A stretch of 64,000 bases of DNA from Gillisia hiemivivida (GTDB lineage Bacteria; Bacteroidota; Bacteroidia; Flavobacteriales; Flavobacteriaceae), in the NCBI RefSeq assembly GCF_007997295.1, contig NZ_VORY01000008.1, positions 1 through 64,000 of the forward strand, in the 5' to 3' direction. The position numbers and the translations under genes are program-made. This document shows, piece after piece, positions 27,674 to 50,145 of the stretch (positions within the stretch are counted from its first letter, which is position 1; each line of letters starts with the position of its first letter). The notes below the pieces were generated by a model. The model did no database searches, had not been told where the DNA came from, and saw nothing but the letters and a program-made list of their open reading frames with translations.

Positions 27674-30439
27674 ATGAGAACAGTTTTAATTGGCCTGCTC
27701 CTAACTGCTTGTTTTACTCTACAGGGGCAAGAAATAGCTCCCTACTTCACCAATTATTTAAAAACCGATTATAAAGGGGAGAATTCTAATTGGGATATTA
27801 CTCAGCATCCAGATGGGACGGTATATGTTGCTAATAATAAAAATCTCCTAGCTTTTAACGGAGATTTTTGGGCTAAGTATACTTTGCCTTCCAAAGGAAT
27901 AATAAGATCTGTAAGCGTTATAAACGATACTTTATATTCGGGTTCTTATCATCAATTTGGCTATTGGATTAAAAATGATAAGAATGAATTAGAATACAAT
28001 TCCATAAGTGATTCCATCGACCAAAAAAATTTCAATAATGATGAAATCTGGAAAATAATTTCGTTTGGTGAGGAAATTTTGTTTCAGTCCTTCAATAAGG
28101 TTTACAGGTTTAATACAAAAACCAAGAAAATTAAAGTACTTCCTTTTGGAAATATTTCAGCGGTATATACTTATCTAATTCATAATAAATTATATGTAGG
28201 CACCAAAAATAATGGGATTTACCAAATAGAGAATGATAGTGTTTCCCCATTAAATTGGAGTAAACCGCTAAATAATTATACCATCCAAAGTATTGTTGAT
28301 TATAAAGGTGGATTATTGATAGCAACCCAAATTAATGGTCTTTATTATTACAATGATTTTGTATTAAAGAAATGGTCTTTTTCTTCTTTTGATGAAATAA
28401 AATATCCTGAAATCAATAATTTAAAAATAGTGAATAACCTTGTATGTGTTGGCACCATTAACAATGGACTCATGGTCTATAACTCTGAAGGTCTACTCAA
28501 ATATGTTTATAATAAGAAAAATGGACTAGCCAACAATACTGTTTTAAGGCAATTTTTAGATGATCAAAATAATTTATGGCTAGCACTGGATAACGGCTTA
28601 TCTAAAATATTCCTTACTAAAAGCGTGTATGCTTATAATGATAAATCCGGTCTATTAGGAACTGTATATAGTATAATAGACCAAGGTGAAAATCTTCTAG
28701 TTGGTTCTAACCATGGTGTTTTCTCTTTATTGGGTACTCAACTGGAGTTTTTAGAAGCTTCAAATGGTCAAGTATGGAATCTAACTAAAGTAGGTGATGA
28801 AGTTATCTGTGGACATAACAATGGCACCTACAGTATTACAAATAAGGAATTCAAACTTATAAGCACTGCAACCGGTGGTATGGATTTCGTTAATATTTCT
28901 GGGACAAAATATTATTTGCAACCCAACTATAATGGGATTACCAGATATCATAAAATAAAAGGAGTCTGGGAATCATTTAGATTTAAAGAATTAGACTTCC
29001 CCGTTAGAGGTATATATTTTGATCAAGACCAAAATTTGTGGGTTGATGCTGCACATAAAGGAGTGTTTAAATATAAAATTTCTGATGACTTTAAGGAATT
29101 AAAACTTCTAAAAAGTTTTAATGGTTCTAATGTCCCATACGAAATGTTTGCTCTTGGCTCACAAATATTTCTGACAAGAAAGAATAAAATCTATAGGTAT
29201 GATCCAATTCATGATATTTTAGTTAGGGATTCCATATTAGAAAAAAGAATATACCCATTTACTAGTATATCAGGTATTAATAAAGAATTACTGGTAATTA
29301 AAAACGCAAATTCGCTCAGAATTACTTCCCAAGCAGGTGATAATTTATATAATTTTAATGAGGAGCTAATTAATAGTAGGATCGTTAAGAGTGCTCCTAG
29401 CGCTAAAAAAATAGATAAGTCGTTGTTTTTATTTTTAGATGATGGTTTTTTAAAAGTTAAGCCTTCTAAATCTCAGAAAAACATAGACTCAGCAAACGTG
29501 TCTTTGGAAATGGTTAAAGTAAATGGTAATTCGGTACCACTTAATGCTTCTATAGATATTCCATTCAAGAAGAATACCCTTAGTTTGAAGTTTTCCAGCC
29601 ATGCTCCAGGAGCTTTGTCGTTACCTCTTTATTCCTACAAGTTGGAGGGTTATGATAAAAAATGGTCTACACCTAATATCACCTCACATGTGGCTTATCA
29701 AAATCTACAACCTGGAGATTATGAATTTAAGGTAAGAAACATTAGTGTAGATGAAAATCTTGAAAGAACACTGTTTTCGTTTAGTGTTCTCCAACCGTGG
29801 TATTTTAACATTTGGGCTTGGATTGGCTATATGATTCTTTTAATCTTTGTTCTGTTTCTGGTTCATTACTATAACAAGAGGAAGTTTAAAAGAAAAAAAA
29901 AGTCACTGGAAAGGGAACTCCATTATAAGCAAAAACTCATATTACAAAAGCAAAATTTCGAGACCAACAACAAAATAACCCTATTAGAACAAGAAAAATT
30001 AAAAACCCAACTGAAGTCTAAAAGTAAAGAGCTGGCCTCCTATGCAGCCTTAATGGCAAAAAAAGAGGATATGGTGAATGAAATAGAAAAGGAAATATTA
30101 AAATCAAATATTAAAAAGGAAAATAAGAAACTCTATTCAAAACTTATGGATATTAAAGAGCAACAATCAAATTCTCAAAACGATTGGGCTCTTTTCGATA
30201 GAAATTTCAATGAAGTACATGATGATTTCTTTAAAAATTTACAGCAAAAATTTCCAGACCTTACCCCCAAGGATTTAAAAATGTGTGCCTACCTAATTAT
30301 GAACCTAAGTTCCAAGGAAATTGCTCCTTTAGTTGGAATAACATATAGAAGTGTAGAATTACATAGGTACAGATTACGAAAGAAATTTAATCTTCCCAAA
30401 AATAAAAATCTAGTTAAATTTTTACACCAATTACTTTAG
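27674..30439 (+). CDS. Membrane-spanning one-component PUL regulator (beta-propeller, Y_Y_Y, LuxR-type HTH)
   Basis: About 921 residues from ATG 27674; the frame extends to TTG 27647, but the later ATG gives a clean signal peptide (MRTVLIGLLLTACFTLQGQ). A large periplasmic part shows regulator-propeller repeats (DDQNNLWLALDNGLSKIF, DQDQNLWVDAAHKGVF), then a triple-tyrosine domain with YKLEGYDKKW, one membrane helix (IGYMILLIFVLFLVHYY, near residue 715), a long coiled coil, and a C-terminal helix-turn-helix (LTPKDLKMCAYLIMNLSSKEIAPLVGI in two parts, then SVELHRYRLRKKF). There is no kinase domain, unlike hybrid two-component PUL sensors. Its position just before susC suggests it senses the oligosaccharide and activates the locus directly. 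Confidence 0.85.
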   Translation: MRTVLIGLLLTACFTLQGQEIAPYFTNYLKTDYKGENSNWDITQHPDGTVYVANNKNLLAFNGDFWAKYTLPSKGIIRSVSVINDTLYSGSYHQFGYWIKNDKNELEYNSISDSIDQKNFNNDEIWKIISFGEEILFQSFNKVYRFNTKTKKIKVLPFGNISAVYTYLIHNKLYVGTKNNGIYQIENDSVSPLNWSKPLNNYTIQSIVDYKGGLLIATQINGLYYYNDFVLKKWSFSSFDEIKYPEINNLKIVNNLVCVGTINNGLMVYNSEGLLKYVYNKKNGLANNTVLRQFLDDQNNLWLALDNGLSKIFLTKSVYAYNDKSGLLGTVYSIIDQGENLLVGSNHGVFSLLGTQLEFLEASNGQVWNLTKVGDEVICGHNNGTYSITNKEFKLISTATGGMDFVNISGTKYYLQPNYNGITRYHKIKGVWESFRFKELDFPVRGIYFDQDQNLWVDAAHKGVFKYKISDDFKELKLLKSFNGSNVPYEMFALGSQIFLTRKNKIYRYDPIHDILVRDSILEKRIYPFTSISGINKELLVIKNANSLRITSQAGDNLYNFNEELINSRIVKSAPSAKKIDKSLFLFLDDGFLKVKPSKSQKNIDSANVSLEMVKVNGNSVPLNASIDIPFKKNTLSLKFSSHAPGALSLPLYSYKLEGYDKKWSTPNITSHVAYQNLQPGDYEFKVRNISVDENLERTLFSFSVLQPWYFNIWAWIGYMILLIFVLFLVHYYNKRKFKRKKKSLERELHYKQKLILQKQNFETNNKITLLEQEKLKTQLKSKSKELASYAALMAKKEDMVNEIEKEILKSNIKKENKKLYSKLMDIKEQQSNSQNDWALFDRNFNEVHDDFFKNLQQKFPDLTPKDLKMCAYLIMNLSSKEIAPLVGITYRSVELHRYRLRKKFNLPKNKNLVKFLHQLL

Positions 30440-30711
30440 AGACCTACGAAAACGTTGTAATTATGCCCTATTTACCTCATCATTGCCACATCAAAAGACT
30501 ATGTTGTTTTATTTTATACTTTATTTTAATTTCATAAAGTATTGTAAAACAAAGTTTTAGAACTATATTCAAACTTGATGTGTTTACTTATATTAAGTAA
30601 ATATTAACAATGTGCGTTCTAGTATTAGCTTTGGTATAATTCCTTTCCTTTTTTAAGGGCTTAAGGAATGTTTAAACTCTAAACTTTAATTCTTCTAAAA
30701 TAGTTGTGCTT
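30440..30711 (+). other. Gene-free regulatory region before susC
   Basis: AT-rich and without reading frames of note. It contains the susC -7 element at 30626-30633. Any binding site of the adjacent regulator is expected here, but I see no clear inverted or direct repeat. Confidence 0.5.
30626..30633 (+). promoter_or_regulatory. -7 element of the susC operon
   Basis: TAGCTTTG matches TANNTTTG exactly, 78 bp before the susC ATG. There is no TTG at -33, suggesting dependence on an activator. Confidence 0.5.
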
Positions 30712-33700
30712 ATGAAAACAAAATTCACTCTATTATTTGTGTTATTCAATATATTCTATTTCCAGGCATTAGCTCAGGAACGAATTATTTCCGGAACAGT
30801 AACATCAGAGCCGGACGGGTTAACTCTCCCAGGCGTAAATGTTTTTGTTAAAGGTACTTCTAAAGGTACTATAACTGATTTTGATGGTAACTACTCTATT
30901 AGTGCAAATGACAATGACGCCCTAGTATTTAGTTTTTTGGGATTCGAAACCAACGAGGTAATTGTTGCTTCTCAAAATATCATAAATGTAATAATGAAAG
31001 AAAGCGCTTCTACTTTGGATGAAGTTGTGCTAATAGGTTACGGAACCCAGAAAAAGGCCGATCTCACAGGTGCTATTACTACTATAGAGTCTGAAGATAT
31101 TACAAGAACACCTTCTGGTTCTGTGATGCAATCATTACAAGGTAAAGTGGCGGGTTTGCAAATAGTGAGTAGTGGTGCTCCAGGTACATCTCCTACAGTT
31201 AGAGTTCGTGGTCTTGGGTCCTACACCGGAGGAGGGGCTTCTAACCCGCTCTTCGTTGTAGATGGCACCTTTTACGATGACATTAACTTTTTAAACAGCG
31301 AGGATATTGAAACCATTTCAGTGCTTAAAGATGCATCAGCATCCGCCATTTATGGGGTAAGAGCTGCAAACGGTGTAGTTCTTATTCAAACTAAATCTGG
31401 AAGAAAGAATCAGAAACCTCAAATAACCTATAGCGGCTATCAAGGTTTTCAAATTCCTCAAAATGTTGTCAAATTATCGAATTCTGAACAATTTGCCACC
31501 TTAGCAAGAGAATCTGGTTCTGCTGCAGAAGCGAGTTTTATAGATAATGCTATTCAGCGCTATGGACGTAGTAGAATAAACCCCAATATACCTGATGTAA
31601 ATACAGATTGGTACGATTTGATTTTACGTGACGCCCGTATACAAAATCACAGTTTAGGAGTTATAGGTGGGTCTGAAAACATCACCTATTCACTAGGAAT
31701 AAGTCAATTTGAACAAGAAGGTATTCTTAAAATGAAAAATGACTATGAGCGATTTAATATAAGATCTAAAATAAATATTGATATAAGCGATCGACTAAAA
31801 GTAGGAGTTTCGTCACTTTTAAGCAATGCTACCAGATACCGTCCGGAAGATGGTGCTTTTAGTTCTGCATATTTTGCGGTGCCGACAATGCCAGTTCTAG
31901 ACCCATCTAAAACGGACGCATTTCCCAGACCGTATGCCGATGCGCAAGACTTAGGGTACAGAGGGCCACAAAACCCGTTTCCTTTAATGGAGAATACCGA
32001 AAACAGGAATAAAATACGGAATACATTAATGACTTTTGATTTAAGCTATCAACTGATTCCGGATATGCTAACTATTAAAACAGCATACTCTCATAATTTT
32101 GAAACCATTGAAAGTAGAGACGTAAGACTTCCATTCTTTTTTGGTAATGGAAACGCTTTTAGGGAAAATGCAGAGTTAACTAAAAGAAATGAAACGTTTT
32201 CTGAGCAAACCTGGGACAACACCTTAACATATAATGATGATTTTGGAAAACATAATTTAACTGTTTTAGCAGGTACCTCTTTTAGAGATAGATCTTTTGA
32301 ACAATTACGTGCAACAGGATTAAACTTCCCGAATGGTCCTGGAATTGGGGACGAATCTTACTTTCTGGATTTGGCAAAAACCATTGATTTGGATGGGGTT
32401 GGTGATGGTGGCGTGAGACAATATTTCTTCTCCTATTTTGGGCGGGTTGCTTATAACTTTGATGGTCGTTACCTACTGTATGGAACTTTTCGGGCAGATG
32501 GAACAAGTAAATATCAGGAAAAATGGGGCTATTTCCCTACTGTTGGTGTCGGTTGGGTAATTTCACAAGAAGATTTCTGGGGAGCGAATAATCCGGTAAG
32601 TTTCCTGAAATTAAGGGCTAGTTGGGGTGAATTGGGAAATGCAAATGTAGCTGCAAGTACCGGAGGTATTACTTCAACAGAGGTTGATGCCGCTTTTGGT
32701 GATATCCGATTTCCAGGTTTGGTTACCAGTAGTGATTTTGAATCTTTAAAATGGGAGGTAACTGCTGAAACAAACGTTGGAATCACCGCAACTTTATTCG
32801 ATAATCACTTATCTATTGAGTCCGATTATTTTACCAGAGAAACAACAGATGCCATAATTCCGGTTTCAAGACTTTTAGTGCCAGGATCAACCAGGCAGAA
32901 TATTGGAAGAATTAAAAACTCCGGATTTGAGATTGCGTTAAATTGGAATAAAAGTGTGTCTGAAGATTTTAGTTATAATATAGGTGCAAACTTTTCAACC
33001 TTAGAAAATGAAATATTAGACTTAGCAGGACAAGAAAATTTAACCACTGGAGGAGATGTGGCACAGCGATCTGTAGTTGGAGGTGCTATAAACTCTTTCT
33101 TCGGGCTTGAGGTTGCTGGTGTATATCAAACTCCTGAAGAAATTCAAGCAGATCCTGCAGCACAAGCAGCTCTAGAAGATGGACTAGTAGTGTTACCGGG
33201 TGATTTTAGATTTGTAGATCATAACGGAGACGGGATGATTGATGCACAAGACAGAGTGGATTTAGGATCCTTTTTGCCAAGCTATACATTTGGTTTTAAT
33301 CTGGGGCTTAACTATAAGGCCTGGGATTTTTCTTTAAATGTAATTGGGCAAGGAGGCAATGTAATAGCAAATATCAAACGTTTTGCAATACGACAAACGT
33401 CCGATCCTAATATTGATAGGGAATTTTTCATTAACCGTTGGAATGGTCCTGGCACTTCAGATTCCTATCCCTCTGCAAGAGGTATTAGAAACCCATGGAG
33501 CAATCAATTTCTTAATAGCTTTTTTGTTGAAGATGGGGATTTTGTTCGATTACAAAATGTCACATTGGGGTATACATTGCCACAGTTAAAAGGAAAATTC
33601 AATCCTGACATTAGGTTTTATTTAACTGCCGAGAGGCCATTAACTATATTTGATTACAATGGGTTCACACCAGAGGTCCCAGATGGACGAGATAATCAAA

Positions 33701-33750
33701 CCTATCCTATCCCAGGTGTATATACATTCGGCATAAATATTAAAATTTAA
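30712..33750 (+). CDS. SusC/RagA family TonB-linked outer-membrane transporter
   Basis: 1012 residues from ATG 30712 (a GTG two codons earlier extends the frame). Order: signal peptide, CarboxypepD_reg-like domain (ISGTVTSEPDGLTLPGVNVF, about residues 22-105), the SusC-specific EVVLIGYGTQKKADLTGAI near 105, plug with LQGKVAGLQIV and VRVRGLGS, then the barrel. SusC proteins import oligosaccharides across the outer membrane with a SusD lid. The susD gene starts 11 bp downstream. The glycan target is inferred from the GH144 genes farther on. Confidence 0.96.
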   Translation: MKTKFTLLFVLFNIFYFQALAQERIISGTVTSEPDGLTLPGVNVFVKGTSKGTITDFDGNYSISANDNDALVFSFLGFETNEVIVASQNIINVIMKESASTLDEVVLIGYGTQKKADLTGAITTIESEDITRTPSGSVMQSLQGKVAGLQIVSSGAPGTSPTVRVRGLGSYTGGGASNPLFVVDGTFYDDINFLNSEDIETISVLKDASASAIYGVRAANGVVLIQTKSGRKNQKPQITYSGYQGFQIPQNVVKLSNSEQFATLARESGSAAEASFIDNAIQRYGRSRINPNIPDVNTDWYDLILRDARIQNHSLGVIGGSENITYSLGISQFEQEGILKMKNDYERFNIRSKINIDISDRLKVGVSSLLSNATRYRPEDGAFSSAYFAVPTMPVLDPSKTDAFPRPYADAQDLGYRGPQNPFPLMENTENRNKIRNTLMTFDLSYQLIPDMLTIKTAYSHNFETIESRDVRLPFFFGNGNAFRENAELTKRNETFSEQTWDNTLTYNDDFGKHNLTVLAGTSFRDRSFEQLRATGLNFPNGPGIGDESYFLDLAKTIDLDGVGDGGVRQYFFSYFGRVAYNFDGRYLLYGTFRADGTSKYQEKWGYFPTVGVGWVISQEDFWGANNPVSFLKLRASWGELGNANVAASTGGITSTEVDAAFGDIRFPGLVTSSDFESLKWEVTAETNVGITATLFDNHLSIESDYFTRETTDAIIPVSRLLVPGSTRQNIGRIKNSGFEIALNWNKSVSEDFSYNIGANFSTLENEILDLAGQENLTTGGDVAQRSVVGGAINSFFGLEVAGVYQTPEEIQADPAAQAALEDGLVVLPGDFRFVDHNGDGMIDAQDRVDLGSFLPSYTFGFNLGLNYKAWDFSLNVIGQGGNVIANIKRFAIRQTSDPNIDREFFINRWNGPGTSDSYPSARGIRNPWSNQFLNSFFVEDGDFVRLQNVTLGYTLPQLKGKFNPDIRFYLTAERPLTIFDYNGFTPEVPDGRDNQTYPIPGVYTFGINIKI

Positions 33751-33761
33751 AAAAAATAGCT

Positions 33762-35309
33762 ATGATATATGTAAAAACAAAACAATTGCCTTTGCTTCTA
33801 GTAGTATTAGGCATGCTGCTAACAGGCTGTTCAAATGAATTAGACCAACCGGAACTTAATAATAATTTTGCAGGTGGGACGGATTTTTCGAAAACCGGCG
33901 ATATGATTTTTTCACTCATCGGTGTCTATCAATCCGTTGGTGCCAGGGGGTGGGAGCAACCTTTAGTTGTTTCTACCAGAGGTGATGATGTTAATGCTGC
34001 CGGGGATCAACAAGGTCTTAAAAATCAAGATCGTTATATATATGACAATTCTTTTTTTGGTTCAAGAACCTTATGGGAAACCTATTATGGTGATATTATT
34101 GGCGCCCACACGGGTATAGAACAAATTGAAAGATTCATGGAATTTGCAGATGAAGATGGTGTAGCCTTGGGAAATCAGTATATCGCTGAGGCTAAAGTCC
34201 TAAGGGCTATATTGCTTTTCCAACTGTCGCAAGTTTATGGCGCAGTATTTATTCCAGAATCCTCTGATCTTGATGATTTTGCAAATGTAACTTCAGTACC
34301 TACAAAAGATGAGGTGATGCAGCATCTTTCAGATCAGATGGATGAAGCCATTCCATTTTTGTTGGATATGCGACCTAACGAACGTACAGATTTACCAGGA
34401 GGCGTAACTAAATATACGGCTTTACATATTAAGGCTTTAGCGAATCAGGAACTAAAAAATTATCAGGCAGTAGCAGATGCTACGGGACAAATTATAAGTT
34501 CTGGTAAGTTCAGTCTTTTTCCTGATTTTTATGAACTTTTTAAAACTCCCGGAAAGTTAAGTAATGAAAGTCTGTATGAATTTCAATATTCCGATTTTGG
34601 TGCAGGTACAGGTACCAGAGTAGGCCATCTTTATGCGCCTTATGGTCCGAATGGTTGGACACCCGCTGTTGTTGGTGCTAGTGCTGGATGGGGCTTTTTT
34701 GAGCCTAGTTTGAAATATGTTAAGTTTATGTTGAATAGGGGAGAAAATAGTCGTTTGGAAACTTCGGTGTTGTTTACTCAAAATGGTATTGATAGCATTA
34801 TATCTACAACATCTTTTACAGCAGCAACACTGCCAGCTTTTGTATCTTCTACCACCCGAGATGGAGATATTCTTAGAGATAATGCAAGGCATATCTTTTC
34901 CAGCGGGAAACATTATTTACCAAGTAACCAATTAATTCCTGGGCGAAATGATTATGGTAGTAATAAAAATTATATTGTTTATCGTTATGCCGAAACACTT
35001 TTAATGTATACCGAATCATTATTGCAAGGGGCTTCAAACTCTGCCATGAGTGCAGATCAGGCGGTAAATTTGGTTAGGGAGAGAGCAGGCCTAACTCCAT
35101 TAAGCGGTGTGACTTTAAATCAACTTGTAGATGAAAAATATGCTGAATTTGCTATGGAGTGGGGTAAACGATTTTTTGATATGGTTAGACTGGAAAGATA
35201 TGGAGAACTGAGTTATGAAGGAAGAACTTTTACAGCAGATAAAGCTTTTGTAACATATCATCAAGATCAAAAAGATGAATTCCCAATATTAGATGGGGTA
35301 TCGAATTAA
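33762..35309 (+). CDS. SusD/RagB family glycan-binding lipoprotein
   Basis: A 515-residue lipoprotein with lipobox LLTGCSNE (Cys near residue 24). The SusD fold is seen through the tetratricopeptide-like helices (AEAKVLRAILLFQLSQVYGAV, in the N-terminal half) and the C-terminal SusD signature (RYAETLLMYTESLLQGAS, then LVRERAGLTPLSGVT and FAMEWGKRFFDMVRL). It forms the lid of the SusC transporter and captures glycan at the surface. Its end overlaps the open frame of the next gene, but that gene's real ATG is 23 bp after the susD stop. Confidence 0.95.
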   Translation: MIYVKTKQLPLLLVVLGMLLTGCSNELDQPELNNNFAGGTDFSKTGDMIFSLIGVYQSVGARGWEQPLVVSTRGDDVNAAGDQQGLKNQDRYIYDNSFFGSRTLWETYYGDIIGAHTGIEQIERFMEFADEDGVALGNQYIAEAKVLRAILLFQLSQVYGAVFIPESSDLDDFANVTSVPTKDEVMQHLSDQMDEAIPFLLDMRPNERTDLPGGVTKYTALHIKALANQELKNYQAVADATGQIISSGKFSLFPDFYELFKTPGKLSNESLYEFQYSDFGAGTGTRVGHLYAPYGPNGWTPAVVGASAGWGFFEPSLKYVKFMLNRGENSRLETSVLFTQNGIDSIISTTSFTAATLPAFVSSTTRDGDILRDNARHIFSSGKHYLPSNQLIPGRNDYGSNKNYIVYRYAETLLMYTESLLQGASNSAMSADQAVNLVRERAGLTPLSGVTLNQLVDEKYAEFAMEWGKRFFDMVRLERYGELSYEGRTFTADKAFVTYHQDQKDEFPILDGVSN

Positions 35310-35331
35310 TACTAACGAAAAAACAAAAAAA

Positions 35332-37053: not shown

Positions 37054-37061
37054 TTTATAAT

Positions 37062-40854: not shown

Positions 40855-40903
40855 GGACATGAAAAGAATTTGACAATTATTAATCTGTTTAAGACGGAAA
40901 GAA

Positions 40904-42709
40904 ATGAAATGTTATAATAGCATACTTACAGCAACGGCCTTATTATTTGGTGTTATTATATATGCACAGGGGGTAGTTCCGGAAACTTATATCAATCCTT
41001 TGGATATTGATTATACCTATATGGTTTATAATTCAAATAAGAATATTTCCTACCGTTCCGGAGCAGATCCTGCGGTTATTGAATTTCGTGGCGAATACTA
41101 CATGTTTGTCACACGTTCTTTTGGTTATTGGCATTCCACCGATTTGATCAATTGGGAATTTATTAGACCAGAACAATGGTTTTTCGAGGGTTCCAATGCA
41201 CCAACGGCATTCAATTATAAAGATTCGCTGGTGTATTTTGCAGGCGATCCCGCAGGTTATGGGAGTATTCTTTACACCGATGACCCTAAAAGTGGTAAGT
41301 GGACACCAACCGCATCAATTACCAAAAATATTCAGGATTCGGAATTATTTATTGACGATGACGGGAAAACCTATTTGTATTGGGGCTCGTCAAATGTACA
41401 TCCCCTTCGTGTGAAAATGCTGAACAAAGACGATCGTTTTCTTGAAACCGGGGTTGAAAAAGAACTTTTCAACCTGGTGGAAGAAGAACACGGTTGGGAA
41501 CGCTTTGGTGAAAATAATTTCCATCCAACCTTAAAGGAAGGATACATGGAAGGTGCCTCGATGACCAAACACGATGGTAAATACTATTTACAGTATGCGG
41601 CACCCGGTACACAATTTAATGTGTATGCCGATGCAGCTTATATTGGCGAAACCCCGCTTGGTCCTTTTACTTACATGAAAAATAATCCCATGAGTTTCAA
41701 GCCGGGCGGTTTCACTAATGGGGCAGGCCATGGGATCACTATGAAACAAACCAATGGACAGTACTGGCATTTTGCCACCATGGCCCTGGCTTCCAATTCT
41801 CATTGGGAACGTAGGCTGGCTATGTTTCCTACCTATTTTGATGAGGAAGGTTTAATGTACACCATTACAAGCTACGGCGACTATCCGTTGTTTGGGCCAG
41901 ATCATCCAACACAAGCGGGACAGCATAGTGGCTGGATGTTGCTTTCTTACAAAGGAAAAGTAACGGTTTCATCTTCGCAAATGCAGGTGAAAAAAAGTAC
42001 TTCTACCTATGATGATTATGACATCACCGAAATGCCACTTGAAAAGAACAGTGAAGGTGAAATTATTTCGAAGTTGTTAACCGATGAAAGCCCGAAATCC
42101 TTTTGGGTTGCTGAAGCCAACGATGATGAGCAATGGGTTGAGATCGAAATGCTTTCCCCCCGGAATATTTATGCTTTTCAGTTAAATTTTCACGATGAGG
42201 AGTCGGGCATTTATACACGAACTGAAGGCTTGCGCCACAGATTCACCGTGGAAGTTTCAGAAGATGGTGAACATTGGGAAACGGTTGTAGACAGAAGTAA
42301 AAGTTATAAAGATGCTCCAAATGCCTACATCACCCTTAATCAACCTGTACAAGGAAAATACGTACGCTATAATAATATCGAGGTGCCGGGGAATAACCTG
42401 GCATTATCCGAAATAAGAATATTTGGTAAAGGTTTAGGTAAGAAGCCTGCAAAGGTTAAGGGATTCGAAGTTTCCCGCGAGGAAGATCGAAGAGATGCCT
42501 CCTTTACGTGGAATTCGGTTAAAGGAGCTCAGGGATACAATATCCGCTGGGGCATTGCTCCAGATAAATTATATCAATCCTGGTTGATTTACGATGAAAA
42601 TGAACATTTTATGCGCAATCTGGACCGTGATACAGAATATTACTTCAGTGTTGAGTCATTCAATGAGAATGGGATTTCTGAAAGGTCTGAGATTATCAGG
42701 GTGAAATAA
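40904..42709 (+). CDS. GH43 family enzyme with F5/8C and fibronectin type III modules
   Basis: A 601-residue secreted protein (signal to about residue 22). Residues 30-345 form a five-bladed propeller of the GH43 type: SGADPAVIEFRGEYYMFVT (candidate base Asp55), SELFIDDDGKTYLYWGSS near 147, EGASMTKHDGKYYLQYA near 207, and GHGITMKQTNGQYWHF. Residues about 385-505 are a discoidin-like domain (WVEIEMLSPRNIYAFQLNF to VRYNNIEVPGNNLALSEIRI), and 515-601 a fibronectin III module ending ESFNENGISERSE. Subfamily and substrate are unclear; GH43 members cleave arabinosides, xylosides or galactosides, so it may trim side chains. Two decayed relatives lie at 45090-46122 and 49638-50145. Confidence 0.83.
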   Translation: MKCYNSILTATALLFGVIIYAQGVVPETYINPLDIDYTYMVYNSNKNISYRSGADPAVIEFRGEYYMFVTRSFGYWHSTDLINWEFIRPEQWFFEGSNAPTAFNYKDSLVYFAGDPAGYGSILYTDDPKSGKWTPTASITKNIQDSELFIDDDGKTYLYWGSSNVHPLRVKMLNKDDRFLETGVEKELFNLVEEEHGWERFGENNFHPTLKEGYMEGASMTKHDGKYYLQYAAPGTQFNVYADAAYIGETPLGPFTYMKNNPMSFKPGGFTNGAGHGITMKQTNGQYWHFATMALASNSHWERRLAMFPTYFDEEGLMYTITSYGDYPLFGPDHPTQAGQHSGWMLLSYKGKVTVSSSQMQVKKSTSTYDDYDITEMPLEKNSEGEIISKLLTDESPKSFWVAEANDDEQWVEIEMLSPRNIYAFQLNFHDEESGIYTRTEGLRHRFTVEVSEDGEHWETVVDRSKSYKDAPNAYITLNQPVQGKYVRYNNIEVPGNNLALSEIRIFGKGLGKKPAKVKGFEVSREEDRRDASFTWNSVKGAQGYNIRWGIAPDKLYQSWLIYDENEHFMRNLDRDTEYYFSVESFNENGISERSEIIRVK

Positions 42710-42748
42710 TTGAAACAAAAACCTAATTTAATAAATAAAGATTTTACA

Positions 42749-45016
42749 ATGAGAAAAATTTATCTGTCAATTAGTATGTTGCTTCTTGCGGGCAGCTTTG
42801 CGCTTCAGGCACAAACTCAAATTCCTGAAGTAGAGGAACTCCTCTCTAAAATGACTCTAGAAGAAAAGATCGGTCAGCTAAACTTACTAACTCCTGGCGG
42901 TGGTGTTGCTACAGGATCTGTGGTGAGTGAAGATGTAGAGGCCAAGATCAAAGCGGGAAATGTAGGAGGAGTGTTTGGCGTTTCGAGCCCAGAGCGGGTT
43001 AGGCAGGCGCAGGACCTTGCAGTGAAAAATTCACGTCTTAAAATTCCGCTGCTTATAGGTAGCGATGTGATCCATGGGTATAAAACCACTTTTCCTATTC
43101 CGCTGGGACTTTCGGCCAGCTGGGATATGGAACTTATAAAGGAAACCGCCCAAATAGCAGCCAAAGAAGCCACAGCCGATGGGATTAACTGGAATTTCTC
43201 TCCAATGGTGGATATTTCGCGCGACCCTCGTTGGGGCCGGGTAGCTGAAGGTGCAGGAGAAGACCCCTACCTGGGCTCGCAGGTTGCTAAAGCAATGGTT
43301 GAGGGTTACCAGGGAGATGATCTTTCAAAGCCAGAAACAATGATCTCTACTGTAAAGCATATGGCGCTCTACGGAGCTGCTGAAGGTGGTCGCGATTATA
43401 ATCGTGTAGATATGAGTCGTGCAAAGATGTTTAATGAATACCTGCCACCTTATAAAGCCGCAGTAGATGCCGGAGTATGGAGTGTAATGACCTCCTTTAA
43501 TGACATAGACGGGGTTCCCGCTTCAGGAAATAACTGGCTGCTTACCGATGTTTTACGTGAGCGCTGGGGATTTGATGGGTTTGTGGTATCAGATTATACT
43601 TCAGTAAACGAAATGATCGCTCACGGCATGGGAGATTTGCAGGCCGTTTCGGCACTGGCGATCAATGCCGGGCTGGATATGGATATGGTTGGAGAAGGTT
43701 TTCTTACCACCCTAAAAAAATCTGTTGAAGAAGGAAAAGTTACTGAAGAAACTATTACCACTGCCGCCAGAAGGATCCTTGAAGCTAAACACAAACTTGG
43801 ATTATTTGATGATCCTTACAGGTACTCTGATGAAAGCAGGCCGGAAACCGATATACTTACAGCAGCTAATCGGGCGAAAGCCAGGGAAGCAGCCACCAAA
43901 TCTTTCGTGCTTCTTAAAAAACATAACAACACCCTGCCAATTTCAAAAAATGCAAAGATTGCACTTATTGGACCGCTGGCAAATAACAAGAACAATATGT
44001 TGGGAACCTGGGCACCTACAGGCGATCAACAGCTTTCAATCCCAATACTGGAAGGTTTTAAAAATGTGGCGCCCAATGCAAGTATTACCTATGCAAAAGG
44101 AGCCAACATAAGCGATGACACCACCTTTGCAAAAAAGGTGAATGTCTTTGGGCCCCGTATTGAAATCTCAGAAGAATCTCCGGAGCAATTGTTGAAGGAA
44201 GCTATGAAGTTGGTTGCGAATGCCGATGTGGTTGTTGCAGTGGTTGGGGAAGCATCAGAAATGAGTGGGGAAGCCGCCAGTCGAACTGACATTTCTATTC
44301 CTGAAAGTCAGAAGAAACTGATAAGGGAACTTGCCGCAAGCGGAAAGCCCGTGGTTCTGGTCTTAATGAGTGGTCGCCCGCTTACCATTCCGGAAGAAAT
44401 GGAATTACCGGTGAGTATATTACAGGTATGGCATCCCGGGGTGGAAGCAGGAAATGCTGTAGCCGATGTAGTTTTTGGAGATTATAATCCTTCGGGAAAA
44501 CTTACATCTACCTGGCCCGTAAATGTGGGACAGATCCCTATCTACTACGGAATGAGAACCACCGGAAGGCCCGCAGCTTCAGAAAAATTTGAGAAATTCA
44601 AATCCAATTATCTTGACGCTCCAAACGCCCCTCTATTTCCCTTTGGATATGGGTTGAGCTATACAGAATTTGATTATTCCAATGTGAAAGTGAGCGATGC
44701 TACACTTTCTGAAAATGGAAGTATTACCATCTCAGCAACTGTAACCAATTCCGGAGATTATAACGGCGAAGAAGTCGTGCAACTTTACCTGCATGACAAA
44801 GTGAGGTCTATTACTCCACCAATGAAAGAATTAAAAGGTTTTAAAAAGATCTTCCTTGAAAAAGGGGCTTCTCAAACCGTGACATTTGAGATCACTACAG
44901 AAGACCTTAAATTCTATAACAATGAGGAGGAATTCATCTTTGAACCCGGAGAGTTTGAATTTTTTGTAGGTGGCAGCTCAGACAATAAATTTATCGGAAG
45001 TTTTACCGTAGAGTAG
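42749..45016 (+). CDS. bglX: GH3 beta-glucosidase (BglX-like)
   Basis: 755 residues from ATG 42749; the frame extends to a TTG at 42710, but the later ATG starts a clear signal peptide (MRKIYLSISMLLLAGSFA, cleavage after QAQ). Domains: GH3 N-terminal barrel (about 30-350, RWGRVAEGAGEDPYLGSQVA, nucleophile Asp near residue 280 in FVVSDYTSVNE), GH3 C-terminal domain (about 390-620), and a fibronectin III-like end (FYNNEEEFIFEPGEFEFFVG). Periplasmic enzymes of this type release glucose from beta-gluco-oligosaccharides; some Bacteroides GH3 enzymes prefer beta-1,2 linkages. It would finish digestion of the GH144 products. Confidence 0.93.
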   Translation: MRKIYLSISMLLLAGSFALQAQTQIPEVEELLSKMTLEEKIGQLNLLTPGGGVATGSVVSEDVEAKIKAGNVGGVFGVSSPERVRQAQDLAVKNSRLKIPLLIGSDVIHGYKTTFPIPLGLSASWDMELIKETAQIAAKEATADGINWNFSPMVDISRDPRWGRVAEGAGEDPYLGSQVAKAMVEGYQGDDLSKPETMISTVKHMALYGAAEGGRDYNRVDMSRAKMFNEYLPPYKAAVDAGVWSVMTSFNDIDGVPASGNNWLLTDVLRERWGFDGFVVSDYTSVNEMIAHGMGDLQAVSALAINAGLDMDMVGEGFLTTLKKSVEEGKVTEETITTAARRILEAKHKLGLFDDPYRYSDESRPETDILTAANRAKAREAATKSFVLLKKHNNTLPISKNAKIALIGPLANNKNNMLGTWAPTGDQQLSIPILEGFKNVAPNASITYAKGANISDDTTFAKKVNVFGPRIEISEESPEQLLKEAMKLVANADVVVAVVGEASEMSGEAASRTDISIPESQKKLIRELAASGKPVVLVLMSGRPLTIPEEMELPVSILQVWHPGVEAGNAVADVVFGDYNPSGKLTSTWPVNVGQIPIYYGMRTTGRPAASEKFEKFKSNYLDAPNAPLFPFGYGLSYTEFDYSNVKVSDATLSENGSITISATVTNSGDYNGEEVVQLYLHDKVRSITPPMKELKGFKKIFLEKGASQTVTFEITTEDLKFYNNEEEFIFEPGEFEFFVGGSSDNKFIGSFTVE

Positions 45017-45077
45017 ATAGTAAAATTCATTAATATGCTCCTCTCACAAAACCCATTTTTTTTTGAAGGAGCATTTA

Positions 45078-45085
45078 TACTTTTG
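45078..45085 (+). promoter_or_regulatory. -7 element before the GH43 pseudogene
   Basis: TACTTTTG matches TANNTTTG exactly, only 4 bp before the ATG of the pseudogene. The promoter match may be chance or a survival from the intact gene. Confidence 0.35.
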
Positions 45086-45089
45086 GAAA

Positions 45090-46122
45090 ATGAATAAAAC
45101 CAGGATTTTTTTCTTGTTGTTCCTTTCCTCGTCCTTAGTTGTAAAGAAAATAAGGCGCAGGAAGAATTTTTGGCTGATGAAAAACATGAAGCACAGAGAC
45201 CATTGCGATTTCGGATTATTGTAAATTTGAAATACTTTTAGTTGAGTACCCGGCAGGTTTTGAAGATATTGGGTAAATGTATGTGAATACGGCCTATGGG
45301 GATTATCCACATTATTTGCCAGATACTGAAGTTGAAAATCATAAAGACCGCTTAACAGGCTGGATGCTTTTATCTTACAATAAGCCCGTAACTACAAATT
45401 CAGGTTTGGTGGAAAAAGACATTAATGTGGTGGACGAAAGTGAAGATGGCTATATGCAGGAACAAATTACGGATTTTAGCATTAATAAAATAAATGATGA
45501 AGAAATTCGCTCATATTGGGTTTCAGAAGCTAATAATGATTCTATTTATGTACAAATTGATTTATTAAAACCAATGAATGTTAAAGCTCTACAAATAAAT
45601 TTTCAGGATTTCAATAGTGTGATTTTTGGAAGACCCGAAGGTATCAAACAGCAATTTATTATTCAATCGTCTTTAGACGGAAATACATGGGAAACCGTGG
45701 AAGATTATTCATAAAATAACAAAGACATGCCTCATGCTTATATTGAGTTAGAAAATCCTGTTGAAGCACGTTATGTCAGGTACAATCATGTGTATTGTAC
45801 AAATAAATATTTAGCTATTTCTGAGCTTAGAGTTTTTGGGAAGGGGAAAGAAGCAAAACCTGTTACGCCACCAAATTTTAAAGCAGAACGTCAAAAAGAC
45901 AGGAGAAATACAGATCTTTCCTGGGATAAAGTTGAAGGAGCTACCGGATATGTTATTTACTGGGGAATTTCAAAAGAGCACCTCAATTTATCAATATTAA
46001 TGTAAGATCACCCAAATTATGAATTAAGAGCTTTTAATACAGACCAAAATTATTTCTACCAGGTAGAAGCTTTCAATGAGAATGGAATTTATGCTAAGAG
46101 TGCCATTTTAAATACAAAGTAA
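45090..46122 (+). pseudogene. Decayed GH43 paralogue: N-terminal fragment, deletion, and F5/8C plus FN3 tail with nonsense codons
   Basis: The start (ATG 45090) reads a lipoprotein-like signal, MNKTRIFFLLFLSSS, then a one-base frameshift is needed to continue as SCKENKAQEEFLADEKHEAQ. Most of the propeller is missing. From about 45240 one frame matches the intact GH43 of 40904-42709: VEYPAGFEDIG, stop, MYVNTAYGDYP against MFPTYFDEEGLMYTITSYGDYP, then GWMLLSYNKPV, the discoidin domain, and the FN3 end FNENGIYAKSAIL. Three in-frame TAA codons (45273, 45712, 46003) fall where the intact gene has sense codons. The two open pieces at 45277-45714 and 45727-46005 are therefore one broken gene. Confidence 0.88.
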
Positions 46123-46141
46123 TTATTAAACTAAATCTGTC

Positions 46142-46975
46142 ATGAAAAAAATTGTTTCAACATTCATTCTTCTATCTACTATCATAATAAGTGCACAGGA
46201 AATTTCGGTTATGACATATAATATTAAGTATGACGAACCTACAGACACTGTTAATAGCTGGAATGTCAGAAAGGATTTTCTAATGTCACAAATCAATTAT
46301 AATCAACCGGATATTTTTGGAACCCAAGAAGGAATGTACAACCAGCTTACCGATATAAAAAAAGGCCTGGATGGATATGAATTTTTTGGGGTAGGAAGAG
46401 ACTTTGGAGACACAAGGGGAGAATATACGGCCATATTCTATAACACTAAGAAAGTAATTCTGATAGAGGAAAGTACTTTTTGGCTTTCAGAAACCCCTGA
46501 CAAACCTTCTAAAGGATGGGATGCCGCGTTAAACAGAATTTGCACCTACGGAATTTTTGAAATTAAAAACTCTAAAAAACTCCTGTTAGTCTTCAATACC
46601 CATTTTGACCATATAGGTGAACAGGCAAGGGCTGAGAGCGCACTTCTTATTCTTAAAAAAGCGGCAGAAATAAACAGGGATAATCTCCCAGTTATTATTA
46701 TGGGTGATTTTAACTTAGAATCAGATAGCCAAGGCGTTCAGAATATATTGAAGCAATTTGATGATTCCCATCTAACGGCAAAAACTTCCTTTGGACCAAC
46801 AGGAACTTTCAATGGATTTCATTTCGATAAACCGGTAACAAGAAGGATTGATTTTGTATTCACTTCAAAAAACCTGGAAGCATTGAAAAGTGGTATTTTG
46901 AGTGATTCAAAAGATTGTCGCTACCCTTCAGACCATTTCCCGGTGTATGTTGAACTAAACTTAAAAAATGAATAA
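46142..46975 (+). CDS. Secreted endonuclease/exonuclease/phosphatase family protein
   Basis: A 277-residue protein with a signal peptide (MKKIVSTFILLSTIIISAQ). The DNase I-like fold motifs are present: MTYNIKYD near residue 24, FGTQEGMY near 60 (metal Glu), FNTHFDHIGEQARAES near 152, IMGDFNLESDS near 188, RRIDFVF near 235, and the final SDHFPVYVEL. The superfamily hydrolyses phosphodiesters or phosphomonoesters. Inside a PUL it may remove phosphate-ester substituents such as phosphoglycerol, but this is inference. Its last 8 bases overlap the start of the GH2 gene, so the two are coupled. Confidence 0.87.
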   Translation: MKKIVSTFILLSTIIISAQEISVMTYNIKYDEPTDTVNSWNVRKDFLMSQINYNQPDIFGTQEGMYNQLTDIKKGLDGYEFFGVGRDFGDTRGEYTAIFYNTKKVILIEESTFWLSETPDKPSKGWDAALNRICTYGIFEIKNSKKLLLVFNTHFDHIGEQARAESALLILKKAAEINRDNLPVIIMGDFNLESDSQGVQNILKQFDDSHLTAKTSFGPTGTFNGFHFDKPVTRRIDFVFTSKNLEALKSGILSDSKDCRYPSDHFPVYVELNLKNE

Positions 46976-49454
46976 GATATTAATTTGTATTATAGGTGTT
47001 TTTAGCAATGCCATAGCCTATGCTCAGGAAATAGAACTAAAAAACTGGCAATTCCATTCAGAAAAAGATACTGTTGAGCAATTAGTTGAAACACCGCATA
47101 CATGGAATCTCCTGGATGCGTTTGATGATACGCCGGGCTATTGGAGAGGAACCGGATATTACACTACACAAACAACGATTACAAACCTTACTAAATCATA
47201 TTATTTGCACTTTAACGGGGTTAATCAGGTAGCTAAAATAAAAGTTAATAATCGAGAAGCGGGTGCACATAAAGGAGGATATACAGCTTTTGATGTTGAT
47301 ATTACGCCATACATTATTAAGGGGAATAATACCATCACGGTTGAAGTTGATAACAGGCATGATGAAAAAATTCCGCCCTTAGATGCCGACTTTACTTTTT
47401 TTGGCGGAATTTACAGAACTGTTTATTTAGTGGAAGAAAATACTGCACATTTTAAAAAGAATAACGGGGCTGATGTTATTAAAATAGATGCTTTATTGGA
47501 TGATAATTGGCAAGGAACACTAAATATTAATGGAAGTGTTTCAAATCCTGAGAAAACTTCTTATCAACTTAAATTAAGTTTACTGAATGCATCAAATGAA
47601 ATTGTTGCTGAGTCAGAAAAAACAGTGACTTCGAATTTTAAAATTTCATCAGAATTTAAAGACCCGTTACTATGGTCGCCAGATGCTCCAAATTTATATA
47701 TTGTTGAATTAGAAATTTTTGATGGCGATAAGCTTTTAGATACTTACAGACATTACATAGGATTTCGAAAATTTGAAGTCTCCACCTCCGGATTTAAACT
47801 AAACGGACAACCCATAAAATTAATTGGTGTCAACAGACATCAGGATTTGGAAGGATTTGGTAACGCTGTACCCATAAAAAAACAGTTGGAAGACCTTGTT
47901 ATGATTAAAGATATGGGGAGTAACTTTTTGCGTTTAGCCCATTATCCTCAAGACAAGTCTGTATATAAAGCGGCAGACAGCCTGGGCCTTATTCTTTGGT
48001 CTGAAATCCCAGTTATCAACAAAGTCCCAATTGGAGCTGATTACGCTCCATACAAGAAGAATTCTATACAAATGCAGGAGGAGCATATTGCACAGAATTA
48101 CAACCACCCATCCTTCATTTTTGTTGGCTACATGAACGAGATATTTATTAGAATGGTTTTTGACAAACCTTCTGAAGAAGAAAAACCACAAATAATTGCC
48201 AACAGTTTAGATTTAGCTAAAACTCTGGAAAAACTCACACGTGAAGAGGCGCCTAATCACATCACAGTAATGGCGTTGCACGGAAATCAAATTTATAACG
48301 ATACCAAAATTGCAGATATTCCAATGGTCATTGGCTGGAATCTTTATTATGGCTGGTACGAAGGGCAAACAGATGATTTAGGAGGGTTTTTAGATAATGA
48401 ATTTAAGAAATACCCAAACCGTCCTTTAATTATTTCTGAATATGGAGTTGGGGCAGATACACGTCTTCATAACTCTAAGCCTAAAAAGTTTGATTTTTCT
48501 GAAGAGTATCAATTTAAGTATCACCCGGGTTATTATCAGCAAGTCACAGATCGTCCTTTTGTTGTTGGAATGGCAGCCTGGAATTTCGCAGATTTCAGCT
48601 CTGAGTTTCGTGGAGATGCTTTGCCACACATAAACCAAAAAGGATTAGTGAACTATGACAGAACACCAAAAAATATTTACTATTGGTATAAAGGCATTTT
48701 AAAACCTGAAGAAAAAGAAAGTCGTTTTTTTAGAGGCTTATCAACCCATATAAGTAATGATTCTAATAAAGAAATTACAATAATTTCTAATCAGGATATT
48801 TTATTGCAGGTAAATAAAAATAAACCGATCCATTTAGAACCAACTAATGGATTAATATCCTATTCAGTAAATTTAAAAGAAGGAAGAAATACCTTCAAAC
48901 TGATGAATGAAAAAGTTGAATTACAGGATTCCTTATCTCTGAAATACTATAAACCGGATTTCAGTAAAACAGATGAATTAGCAATAAATTTTGGAACTGA
49001 AAGTTACTTTTTAGATTCAAATAATCAAATTTGGATCCCGGCTAATCAAACTGTAAACCTAAAAATATTTGGAGATGTAGTAAATCAAAACAGCAGCACG
49101 AATATCAGGAATACTATTAACGATCCATTATATCAATCTTCTTTAACCAATATTAATAAACTTCATTTTGATGTTCCTAAAGGAATCTATGAAATCACCT
49201 TGCTGTTTTCAAAACTTAAAAAGGAACCCAAACAAGTTTATGAATTAAATAGAAAAGAAAATGAAATTAACCAAAGCGATCAGAGCAACAGCTTAATTAT
49301 TAACGATAATAAGGTTTCGTTAAAAGAATTAGATCTTTTTAATAAACAGGATATTACGCTTTCTGTAAATGCTGAAAATGGAATTACAATTGAAACTATA
49401 AATAACCAGGTATTCTCAATATGTGGAATCCTCATTAAAAAAAATAATGATTAA
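46968..49454 (+). CDS. GH2 family glycoside hydrolase with C-terminal malectin-like domain
   Basis: An 828-residue secreted enzyme (signal cleaved after IAYAQ). Order: sugar-binding jelly roll (about 20-165, WNLLDAFDDTPGYWRGTGYY), Ig-like domain (to about 275), TIM barrel (about 280-575), then a malectin-like C-terminus (about 660-825). Acid/base Glu is in VGYMNEIF near residue 390, and the nucleophile in LIISEYGVGAD near 490. The family contains beta-galactosidases, glucuronidases and mannosidases; the linkage here is unknown. Its DNA is more AT-rich than the GH144-GH43-GH3 block, suggesting a different history. It overlaps the upstream EEP-family gene by 8 bp. Confidence 0.9.
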   Translation: MNKILICIIGVFSNAIAYAQEIELKNWQFHSEKDTVEQLVETPHTWNLLDAFDDTPGYWRGTGYYTTQTTITNLTKSYYLHFNGVNQVAKIKVNNREAGAHKGGYTAFDVDITPYIIKGNNTITVEVDNRHDEKIPPLDADFTFFGGIYRTVYLVEENTAHFKKNNGADVIKIDALLDDNWQGTLNINGSVSNPEKTSYQLKLSLLNASNEIVAESEKTVTSNFKISSEFKDPLLWSPDAPNLYIVELEIFDGDKLLDTYRHYIGFRKFEVSTSGFKLNGQPIKLIGVNRHQDLEGFGNAVPIKKQLEDLVMIKDMGSNFLRLAHYPQDKSVYKAADSLGLILWSEIPVINKVPIGADYAPYKKNSIQMQEEHIAQNYNHPSFIFVGYMNEIFIRMVFDKPSEEEKPQIIANSLDLAKTLEKLTREEAPNHITVMALHGNQIYNDTKIADIPMVIGWNLYYGWYEGQTDDLGGFLDNEFKKYPNRPLIISEYGVGADTRLHNSKPKKFDFSEEYQFKYHPGYYQQVTDRPFVVGMAAWNFADFSSEFRGDALPHINQKGLVNYDRTPKNIYYWYKGILKPEEKESRFFRGLSTHISNDSNKEITIISNQDILLQVNKNKPIHLEPTNGLISYSVNLKEGRNTFKLMNEKVELQDSLSLKYYKPDFSKTDELAINFGTESYFLDSNNQIWIPANQTVNLKIFGDVVNQNSSTNIRNTINDPLYQSSLTNINKLHFDVPKGIYEITLLFSKLKKEPKQVYELNRKENEINQSDQSNSLIINDNKVSLKELDLFNKQDITLSVNAENGITIETINNQVFSICGILIKKNND

Positions 49455-49596
49455 ACCAGGAGAGTCGAAAGGAGTATTCTTTAATTTAAGTTTCAAAGAC
49501 TTTTCATATTATATAAGTAATATGAGTTTTAAAGCAGAGCTCGGGGACTTTAAACTCTTTGTAGGCACAAATTCAGTTTCCAATTTAAAGTCTTAA
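49447..49596 (+). pseudogene. Remnant of a second GH3 beta-glucosidase (C-terminal end only)
   Basis: A 49-codon open frame that starts inside the GH2 stop region. Its translation contains KPGESKGVFFNLSFKDFSYY and then AELGDFKLFVGTNS, which align with the C-terminal FN3-like domain of the intact GH3 (EKGASQTVTFEITTEDLKFY, then EPGEFEFFVGGSSDN). About 700 upstream residues of such an enzyme are absent. It is best explained as the tail of a deleted GH3 gene fused by deletion to the end of the GH2 gene. Confidence 0.85.
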
Positions 49597-49637
49597 TTCA
49601 AGCTAGTAAAATAATTAGCTTCAATATATTAAAAAAC

Positions 49638-50145
49638 ATGAAAAAACTATTTTTTTATGGCTTGTATTTTCTTTTACTGTATATCCGTTTTATGTCCATT
49701 AAACATCGCGTCACCCTGAACTAGTTTCAGAGTCTCAAACCCTTATAAACAGAATGCTGAAACGCCCGATGGTTCGGGACAGAATGACGGAAACAGCGTG
49801 TATTGTTAATTGAAAATAACTTAGTGGAACAAAAGCCGACAATCAATTTTCTTTTACAGCAATATCCGCACAACCAATACAATCGCCATCAAAATAGCTC
49901 GCTGTGGAATTCTCCATAAGTAAGGGAAAAAGGAAGCCAGAAATGCTGCTTTATACTGGAGTAGTATAGAGAATATTTAAGGTAATGTTCTCTAATGTGG
50001 AATTAAGCCAGACAAGCTTAATAATTCTAGCCTTATATATCACAAAAACAACTATGATCGAAAAGATTTTTTCAGGTTGTAGTCTTTTAATTAGAATGGG
50101 ATTTCAGAAAAGAGTGATGTTATAAGTAGTAATTCGAAATTATAA
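49638..50145 (+). pseudogene. Third decayed GH43-like gene: orphan signal peptide, REP insertion, F5/8C-FN3 tail with stops
   Basis: ATG 49638 opens a signal-peptide-like frame (MKKLFFYGLYFLLLYIRF) that runs into a palindromic repeat at about 49708-49800 and stops. From about 49924 one frame reads GKKEARNAALYWSSIENI, a stop, GNVL, a stop, CGIKPDKLNNSSLIY, and later SFN, a stop, NGISEKSDVI, ending at 50143-50145. This matches the FN3 end of the intact GH43 (DASFTWNSVKG, WGIAPDKLYQSWLIY, ESFNENGISERSEII). The stop codons replace Gln, Arg and two Glu codons. The propeller is gone. Confidence 0.82.
49708..49800. repeat. Palindromic REP-like repeat inside the third GH43 remnant
   Basis: Contains CGTCACCCTGAACTAGTTTC and CGCCCGATGGTTCGGGACAG, related to the cores of the type 1 modular repeats. 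It interrupts the orphan signal peptide. Confidence 0.6.

Follow-up and report, generated by a model that had tools for sequence, protein, structure and literature searches.

How a polysaccharide utilization locus (PUL) was put together, and which glycan it serves, is the question raised by positions 27674-50145 (+ strand) of a 64,000-nt stretch of Gillisia hiemivivida (GCF_007997295.1, contig NZ_VORY01000008.1, forward strand 1-64,000; hereafter the window, from genome G000). An earlier note, made from the sequence alone, had described the locus as a PUL for a beta-1,2-linked glucan, and profile searches confirmed the genes that it named at their place and strand, all of them in the same orientation within 27.6-49.5 kb (Table 1). 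Indeed, susC and susD are adjacent, carbohydrate-active enzymes are encoded on the same strand and a regulator is linked, as in a PUL. The comparisons presented here make it highly probable that the locus is both a beta-1,2-glucan PUL and a recombinant of resident and incoming DNA. Its recombinant nature had been overlooked, as had a broken GH43 gene, and the stretch ending at 50145 includes, besides the PUL, gene fossils at 49441-50142.

The locus was compared among 16 genomes of the genus, the window's own included (G000, G111 and G299-G312). It lies between the ferredoxin and the DUF3050/acyl-CoA dehydrogenase genes, a site that holds a GH144 PUL in eight genomes (G000, G111, G302-G306 and G312) and no PUL in seven (G299, G300, G301, G307, G308, G309 and G311), the status of G300, G307, G308 and G309 being judged from match coordinates alone; contigs break at the site in G310, where it is not callable. 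In the sister genome G311 (94% DNA identity; assembly 65% complete, contig continuous), 103 bp separate the ferredoxin match from that of DUF3050. Native loci follow the order regulator, SusC, SusD, GH144, GH144, esterase and GH3, after which come GH97 and GH43-II in G302, G303, G304 and G306, nothing in G305 and G312, and GH97, another GH43 and an EEP gene in G111; a sulfatase gene is additionally present in G302 and G111.

The left end of the window locus resembles the native loci, with DNA likeness to G302, G303 and G304 extending to 31.1-31.4 kb. Its regulator is 81-84% identical to the native-site regulators of G302-G305 and 74% to that of G310, with lower values for G306 and G312 (55-56%), G111 (57%) and G301 (29%). 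Similarly, residues 1-103 of SusC are 68-82% identical to native-site proteins of G302-G306, G310 and G312, 53% to that of G111 and 36% to that of G301, whereas from residue 131 to the end the protein is 98% identical to SusC of G301, 87% to that of G306, 64% to that of G111 and 35-37% to those of G302-G305, G310 and G312. By a 50-bp identity profile and a codon alignment, the changeover falls in the TonB box, DEVVLIGYGTQKK. The segment that begins there is shared with G301, another species whose PUL occupies a different site under a different regulator, near the same flank as the PULs of G299, G300 and G308. Third-position identity to G301 within the segment ranges from 81 to 95% by gene, and similarity stops 2 bp past the GH3 stop codon. 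G+C content was not relied on as a sign of foreign origin, since the third-position value (GC3) of flanking genes already spans 0.24-0.39; it is 0.33-0.39 from GH144a to GH3 and 0.25-0.31 in the regulator, SusCD, relic, EEP and GH2 genes.

Debris of the replaced genes is readable behind the GH2 gene, where three fossils follow one another in the native order GH3, GH97, GH43-II. Besides the best matches in Table 1, the GH3 fossil is 50-51% identical to the ends of G302, G304, G306 and G312 (36-42% to second-site GH3s), the GH97 fossil 62-67% to G302, G303, G304 and G310 (54% to G111), and the GH43-II fossil 57-60% to G302, G304 and G306, with 70-72% DNA identity to these and G303. A resident GH144 locus thus kept its regulator, promoter region and SusC N-terminal extension (NTE), and the DNA from the TonB box onward was replaced by a type that occupies a different site in congeneric species. 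As the simplest order of events, we infer overwriting from the TonB box to the resident GH3, followed by decay of the old tail to three fragments; the resident regulator would now control the incoming genes. Alternatively, the mosaic could reflect old allelic diversity maintained by vertical descent and differential loss, with no recent replacement. A window-like barrel (87%) and SusD (90%) also stand at the native site in G306, as such diversity would allow. Nevertheless, this origin is very improbable, given 95% identity to G301 over 14 kb against 69-80% in further comparisons of these two genomes, made in flanking DNA (78%, 70-80% and 69-77%), the abrupt switch at the TonB box and the resident-gene fossils in resident order.

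Table 1. Features of the locus and of its resident and shared segments (window coordinates)
Feature	Position	Strand	Evidence
Resident backbone: trmB to ferredoxin, regulator, first ~103 susC codons	22921..31015	+	DNA 83-85% to G302, G303, G304, same site
Regulator	27674..30439	+	Propeller, Y_Y_Y, C-terminal LuxR-type helix-turn-helix (Pfam); one probable transmembrane helix (by eye)
Chimeric SusC (NTE resident; TonB box, plug and barrel foreign)	30712..33750	+	TIGR04056 813 bits
Segment shared with G301 (other species, other site)	31016..45018	+	94.9% over 14032 alignment columns
SusD lipoprotein	33762..35309	+	PF07980, PF14322
Candidate surface glycan-binding lipoprotein (Big_7, two LamG)	35293..37053	+	PF13385 in two stretches, PF17957
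GH144a lipoprotein (..FSAC/SGDDG), predicted endo-beta-1,2-glucanase	37285..38634	+	PF10091 265 bits
GH144b lipoprotein (..TSIGC/KYN), predicted endo-beta-1,2-glucanase	38661..40022	+	PF10091 275 bits
Secreted alpha/beta-hydrolase esterase	40057..40854	+	PF02230 56 bits; NF050058 65 bits, under its cut-off of 150
GH43-I with F5/8C and fn3	40904..42709	+	PF04616 88 bits
GH3 beta-glucosidase, BglX family	42752..45016	+	NF011678 885 bits (cut-off 666); PDB 3u48, 5tf0, 5xxl
Relic: intergenic DNA and start of FGE-sulfatase-like gene	45012..45198	+	69% DNA to the stretch behind GH3 in L232 (G299)
Relic: second half of GH43-II gene, three internal TAA	45199..46119	+	71% to L122, L131, L099 (three other genera)
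EEP-family hydrolase, phosphatase-like	46142..46975	+	PF03372 80 bits
GH2	46968..49454	+	PF02836/PF02837/PF00703; PDB 8dhl E 9e-145
Fossil: last 57 codons of resident-type GH3	49441..49611	+	54% aa to G303, G305, G310, G111 GH3 ends
Fossil: codons 12-35 of resident-type GH97	49850..49921	+	75% aa to G306
Fossil: last ~75 codons of resident-type GH43-II	49927..50142	+	64% aa to G303

Two further relics separate GH3 from the EEP gene. The FGE-like start is 42-44% identical over 32-33 residues to its counterparts, that of L232 carrying PF03781, which suggests a forerunner with sulfate-handling genes. The broken GH43-II is 53-57% identical to other GH43-II proteins found in the family and genus, 49-50% to the G299 and G300 ones and 40% to the window GH43; this last value, against 71% to GH43-II of other genera, led to rejection of a tandem copy of the window GH43 as its origin. 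A remnant of the G111-type GH43-III was also rejected (34.5%), and a remainder of the resident GH43-II was not favoured, the resident genes being 55-57% alike and having left a separate remnant at 49927-50142. Neighbouring genes are closely spaced (-17 to 49 bp) from SusC through the LamG protein and from GH144a through GH3, as are the relic and EEP, and EEP and GH2; long gaps separate regulator and SusC (266 bp), LamG protein and GH144a (231 bp), and GH3 and relic (179 bp). Short dispersed repeats were observed at 9051-9238 of the window, pieces of which recur in G301, G303 and G311, and at L237:10466-10592, with many copies in G301 and G000. Minus-strand short frames at 22601-22831 (..VMLNSFQHLS..) and 51057-51251 (..HAELVSAS..) flank the locus and, judging from their motif, are presumably a dispersed non-coding repeat.

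As for the substrate, the two lipoproteins that the earlier note had called GH144-like belong to GH144, and are the only PF10091 proteins of the genome. GH144a and GH144b share 54.1 and 59.0% identity with CpSGL, the Chitinophaga pinensis beta-1,2-glucanase; the best PDB relatives are 4gl3 and CpSGL (5gzh; E 2.5e-145) for GH144a and 5gzk/5gzh, both CpSGL, for GH144b (E 2e-171), matches to XcSGL of the sister group being far weaker (E 7e-48 and 6e-32, respectively). D135, D139, E142, E211, F268, Y330 and D400 (CpSGL numbering), discussed as catalytic and clan GH-S residues in PMC12102758 (a source available, like all those cited here, in part), are kept in both proteins in a 261-sequence alignment. 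In a midpoint-rooted FastTree phylogeny both fall inside GH144; GH144a clusters with 4gl3 at a support of 0.80 and GH144b, weakly (0.54), with CpSGL and 3eu8. The structural comparison with the Chitinophaga enzyme that the note had proposed agrees, 5gzk being the first Foldseek match of the GH144a model, an (alpha/alpha)6 barrel (TM-scores 0.76/0.81; mean pLDDT 58). The exo type represented by BDI_3064 was ruled out, since both proteins have no extra N-terminal domain and an Asp at the D400 position, which is replaced by Asn in 12 of the 261 sequences, BDI_3064 included. A third, longer GH144 gene lies between the other two in some relatives and not in the window locus; that of L234 (17118-19307) has the extra N-terminal domain and is BDI_3064-like (836 bits). 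Family membership by sequence, tree and catalytic residues therefore makes a beta-1,2-glucan backbone the best substrate call, so this part of the earlier reading stands.

A pathway can be proposed on this basis. SusD, the LamG protein and both GH144 proteins carry lipoboxes (by eye). The LamG protein and SusD would hold the glucan chain at the cell surface and the GH144 lipoproteins would cut it endolytically, GH144a likely at the surface because acidic residues, which we take as a surface signal, directly follow its lipid cysteine (none do in GH144b; by eye). SusC would import the beta-1,2-gluco-oligosaccharides, a periplasmic GH3 would release glucose, and esterase, GH43, EEP enzyme and GH2 would remove decorations of some kind. 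The GH3 is related to PDB entry 5xxl, presumably BT_3567. The latter acts on sophorose (PMC12369401), which favours the same substrate.

PF10091 was found in 77 of 299 sampled Flavobacteriaceae genomes, in 75 of them, the window's included, above the profile cut-off of 27 bits. One locus was sampled from each of the other 74 (at most 20 kb, some truncated at contig ends), gene presence being scored by BLAST with the window proteins or one representative (>80 bits). SusC was present in 64, GH3 in 62, at least two GH144 in 52, the esterase in 45, the LamG protein in 42, sulfatase in 36, GH43 in 30, EEP in 15 and GH2 in 14; 21 combine all of SusC, SusD, GH144, esterase, GH43 and GH3. The frequent association of paired GH144 with SusC and GH3 favours the beta-1,2-glucan reading. 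One other locus, L062, combines SusC, GH144, GH43, GH3, EEP and GH2, without a matching esterase or LamG protein. In a second survey, 80 named loci were kept out of 153 carrying the GH43 and neighbours were counted within 10 kb: GH144 accompanies GH43 in 64, GH3 in 72 and sulfatase in 41, 33 combine SusD, GH144, esterase, GH43 and GH3 (e.g., Salegentibacter, Christiangramia, Salinimicrobium and Arenibacter), and in seven both GH144 and GH3 are missing from the neighbourhood. PULs for beta-1,2-glucan rank among the abundant types, marine versions adding a sulfatase (PMC6499787); a Maribacter cluster combines two GH144, GH3, susCD and sulfatase, its GH144s being present in all Maribacter and Zobellia compared (PMC8072126); and such PULs are relatively common in Mesoflavibacter, and deep ('BH') trench water is enriched in GH144 (PMC10405439). 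Thus the claim that this exact set was undescribed in marine flavobacteria does not hold, as far as these sources go: the locus type is already known and its gene order recurs widely. The 'exact set' results in part from the splice.

The GH43 offers an argument for a different target, a heteropolysaccharide with minor beta-1,2-glucosyl links whose main chain would be attacked by GH43, GH2 and the phosphatase-like enzyme. D55, D145 and E216 of this protein, which we take to be its three catalytic acids, are invariant across 27 aligned sequences; it has no close solved relative (best PDB E 4e-11), and its model (pLDDT 76.5) has arabinofuranosidases and xylosidases as Foldseek neighbours (best 5msx, BT_3662; TM-scores 0.42-0.55), which agrees with such a target, as does its place beside GH144 in the 64 of 80 named loci. 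In favour of the beta-1,2-glucan reading, on the other hand, GH43 is linked to GH144: from genome lists compared by hand, PF10091 occurs in 39 of 42 GH43-bearing genomes against the 77 of 299 overall (Fisher p 8e-24), and GH144 in all 17 genomes with GH43 identity of at least 78%. The endo-enzymes of the locus are GH144s with the CpSGL catalytic residues, and in the 64 SusC-bearing GH144 loci GH43 was not found in 35 and GH2 not in 50 of the 20-kb stretches; both enzymes are therefore regarded as accessory, and a heteropolysaccharide main chain as unlikely. Identity of the GH43 stays at 77-91% throughout the 80 named loci with the best matches, which come from flavobacteria and from other hosts (e.g., Marinilabilia, Draconibacterium and Echinicola), whereas the GH144s adjoining it in the latter hosts are only about 52-61% identical; this may reflect unusual conservation or separate transfer.

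For the remaining accessory enzymes, the earlier note had envisaged that esterase, EEP enzyme, GH43 and GH2 act on substituents (succinyl, phosphoglycerol) or side branches of a beta-1,2-glucan such as the osmoregulated or cyclic ones of Alphaproteobacteria; in that version the esterase and EEP enzyme would take off the two groups. An esterase and a phosphatase-like enzyme are indeed encoded, and a metallophosphoesterase occurs in 7 and a BD-FAE-like esterase in 25 of the 74 loci. However, comparisons of the esterase, EEP enzyme, GH2 and GH43 identified no substituent: the esterase resembles PHB-depolymerase/carboxylesterase types under NCBIfam cut-offs, the GH2 is nearest to 8dhl and related GH2s, and the closest solved relatives of the EEP enzyme are 3mpr (E 2e-59) and the mannosyl-6-phosphatase 4c1r (E 4e-59). 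The latter, its nearest function-named relative, is a monoesterase, whereas phosphoglycerol requires a phosphodiesterase. The extra gene stressed for marine GH144 loci is, in the part of PMC6499787 available, a sulfatase (36 of the 74 loci here). Finally, an alphaproteobacterial source is not required, because a bacterium of the same genus, G301, encodes a cyclic-glucan-synthase-like protein. Such a substituted glucan is thus quite unlikely as the target, and the substituents proposed in the note found no support. The G301 gene (L257:146-8839), an open frame of 2898 aa that contains GH94 domains as well as one PF10091 domain, adjoins an 866-aa GH2 and resembles cyclic beta-1,2-glucan synthases; a similar long frame lies in G306 (C1:3822909-3823508; PF10091 match only), and a flavobacterium of this genus may itself make cyclic beta-1,2-glucan. 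In 7 of the 74 loci (e.g., L118:8919-9908) a calcineurin-like phosphoesterase adjoins GH144b; together with the EEP enzyme it hints at a phosphorylated glucan. No sulfatase was found in the window locus, the two PF00884 matches of the genome being on other contigs.

Several observations weigh against the reading of the locus as a recombinant beta-1,2-glucan PUL. Native-site regulators are not uniform, the G306, G312 and G111 proteins being 55-57% identical to that of the window. The loci of G000 and G301 both look chimeric against their own site-mates (the G301 SusC barrel and SusD are only 54-55% identical to those of G299 and G300), so transfer may have run in either direction between these lineages. 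Positions 45012-45198 match G299 and G300 rather than G301, and the best matches of the GH43 relic lie in other genera; the tail would therefore have come via at least one further step, which suggests more than one source. As for the substrate, the GH144a model has low confidence (mean pLDDT 58), the GH3 (BglX family), GH2, GH43 and EEP assignments name no substrate, the low-scoring xylosidase and arabinofuranosidase neighbours of GH43 would suit a branched heteroglycan, and BT_3567 is reported to cleave laminaribiose about as fast as sophorose (PMC12369401).

The position of the left junction draws attention to the NTE, a PF13715 domain before the TonB box for which PMC7782687, in the part available, gives the role as unknown. 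Pairwise identities of 78-residue SusC segments were compared with those of the remaining barrel, SusD and the last 110 regulator residues in 64 sampled loci and the window (65; 10 of the 74 were excluded for want of a full SusC or SusD-like gene); the rho values are descriptive, as locus pairs share ancestry. The NTE follows barrel (rho 0.20) and SusD (0.13) far less than the other 12 SusC segments do (0.70-0.84 and 0.68-0.83), and follows the regulator more closely (0.42 against 0.11-0.30; 56 loci). Saturation is not the cause, because the median NTE identity (41%) lies inside the 20-51% range of the other segments. Early NTE-regulator tests kept few loci, the regulator being cut off in the fetched stretches; the first, with 20 loci, gave no pair with NTE identity of at least 65% and barrel below 45%, and ten pairs with the reverse. 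With longer regulator stretches (24 loci including the window; 51 of 75 dropped), the partial Mantel correlation of NTE and regulator given the barrel was 0.35 (0/999 permutations), and that of barrel and regulator given the NTE 0.14 (89/999); 17 of the 25 pairs with barrel identity of at least 60% have NTEs below 50%. Linkage alone can explain this pattern, since the NTE codons lie between the regulator and the crossover point, and functional coupling is possible. We tentatively propose, as a conjecture with odds well short of even, that the NTE could be a locus-specific adaptor working with the membrane regulator of the PUL (or a paired TonB) and not with the cargo, PULs evolving as sockets in which regulator, promoter and NTE stay while the TonB box onward is swapped as a cassette. 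Against sockets, the NTEs of G306, G312 and G111 are 73, 68 and 53% identical to the window's, their regulators only 55-57%. In the literature searched (mostly non-subscription, as titles and abstract beginnings), no report of SusC crossover at the TonB box or of NTE-regulator co-inheritance was found.

In marine Bacteroidota, beta-1,2-glucan use is widespread and tested enzymes are few. The present locus is a sulfatase-free version whose GH43, without assigned activity, is tied to GH144. Its splice is a PUL replacement caught with both junctions and debris readable, and it suggests that crossovers recur at the SusC TonB box. An NTE that follows the regulator, not the barrel, bears on the role of this domain and makes it testable by domain swap.

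Compared with CpSGL (5gzh/5gzk), the window enzymes are alike in catalytic and clan-defining residues and, for the GH144a model, in fold; GH144a groups instead with 4gl3 (BACUNI_03963), for which we know of no published activity. With marine GH144 PULs, as described in the accessible parts of PMC6499787, PMC8072126 and PMC10405439, the locus shares the core of SusCD, two GH144 and GH3 and the predicted beta-1,2-glucan target, but it has no sulfatase and carries an esterase, GH43, EEP enzyme and GH2, a chimeric SusC and relics. The NTE is the same domain in the same position as described in PMC7782687, whereas in the window it follows site and regulator, not the barrel. Finally, in Bacteroides ovatus and B. 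xylanisolvens PULs are exchanged between core genes by homologous recombination (PMC8845570, in the part available), and in both cases the same core genes flank different PULs, the donors are related and there are no obvious mobile-element genes; in the window, by contrast, recombination cut within susC and left the resident regulator and NTE in place, and remnants of the replaced genes survive.

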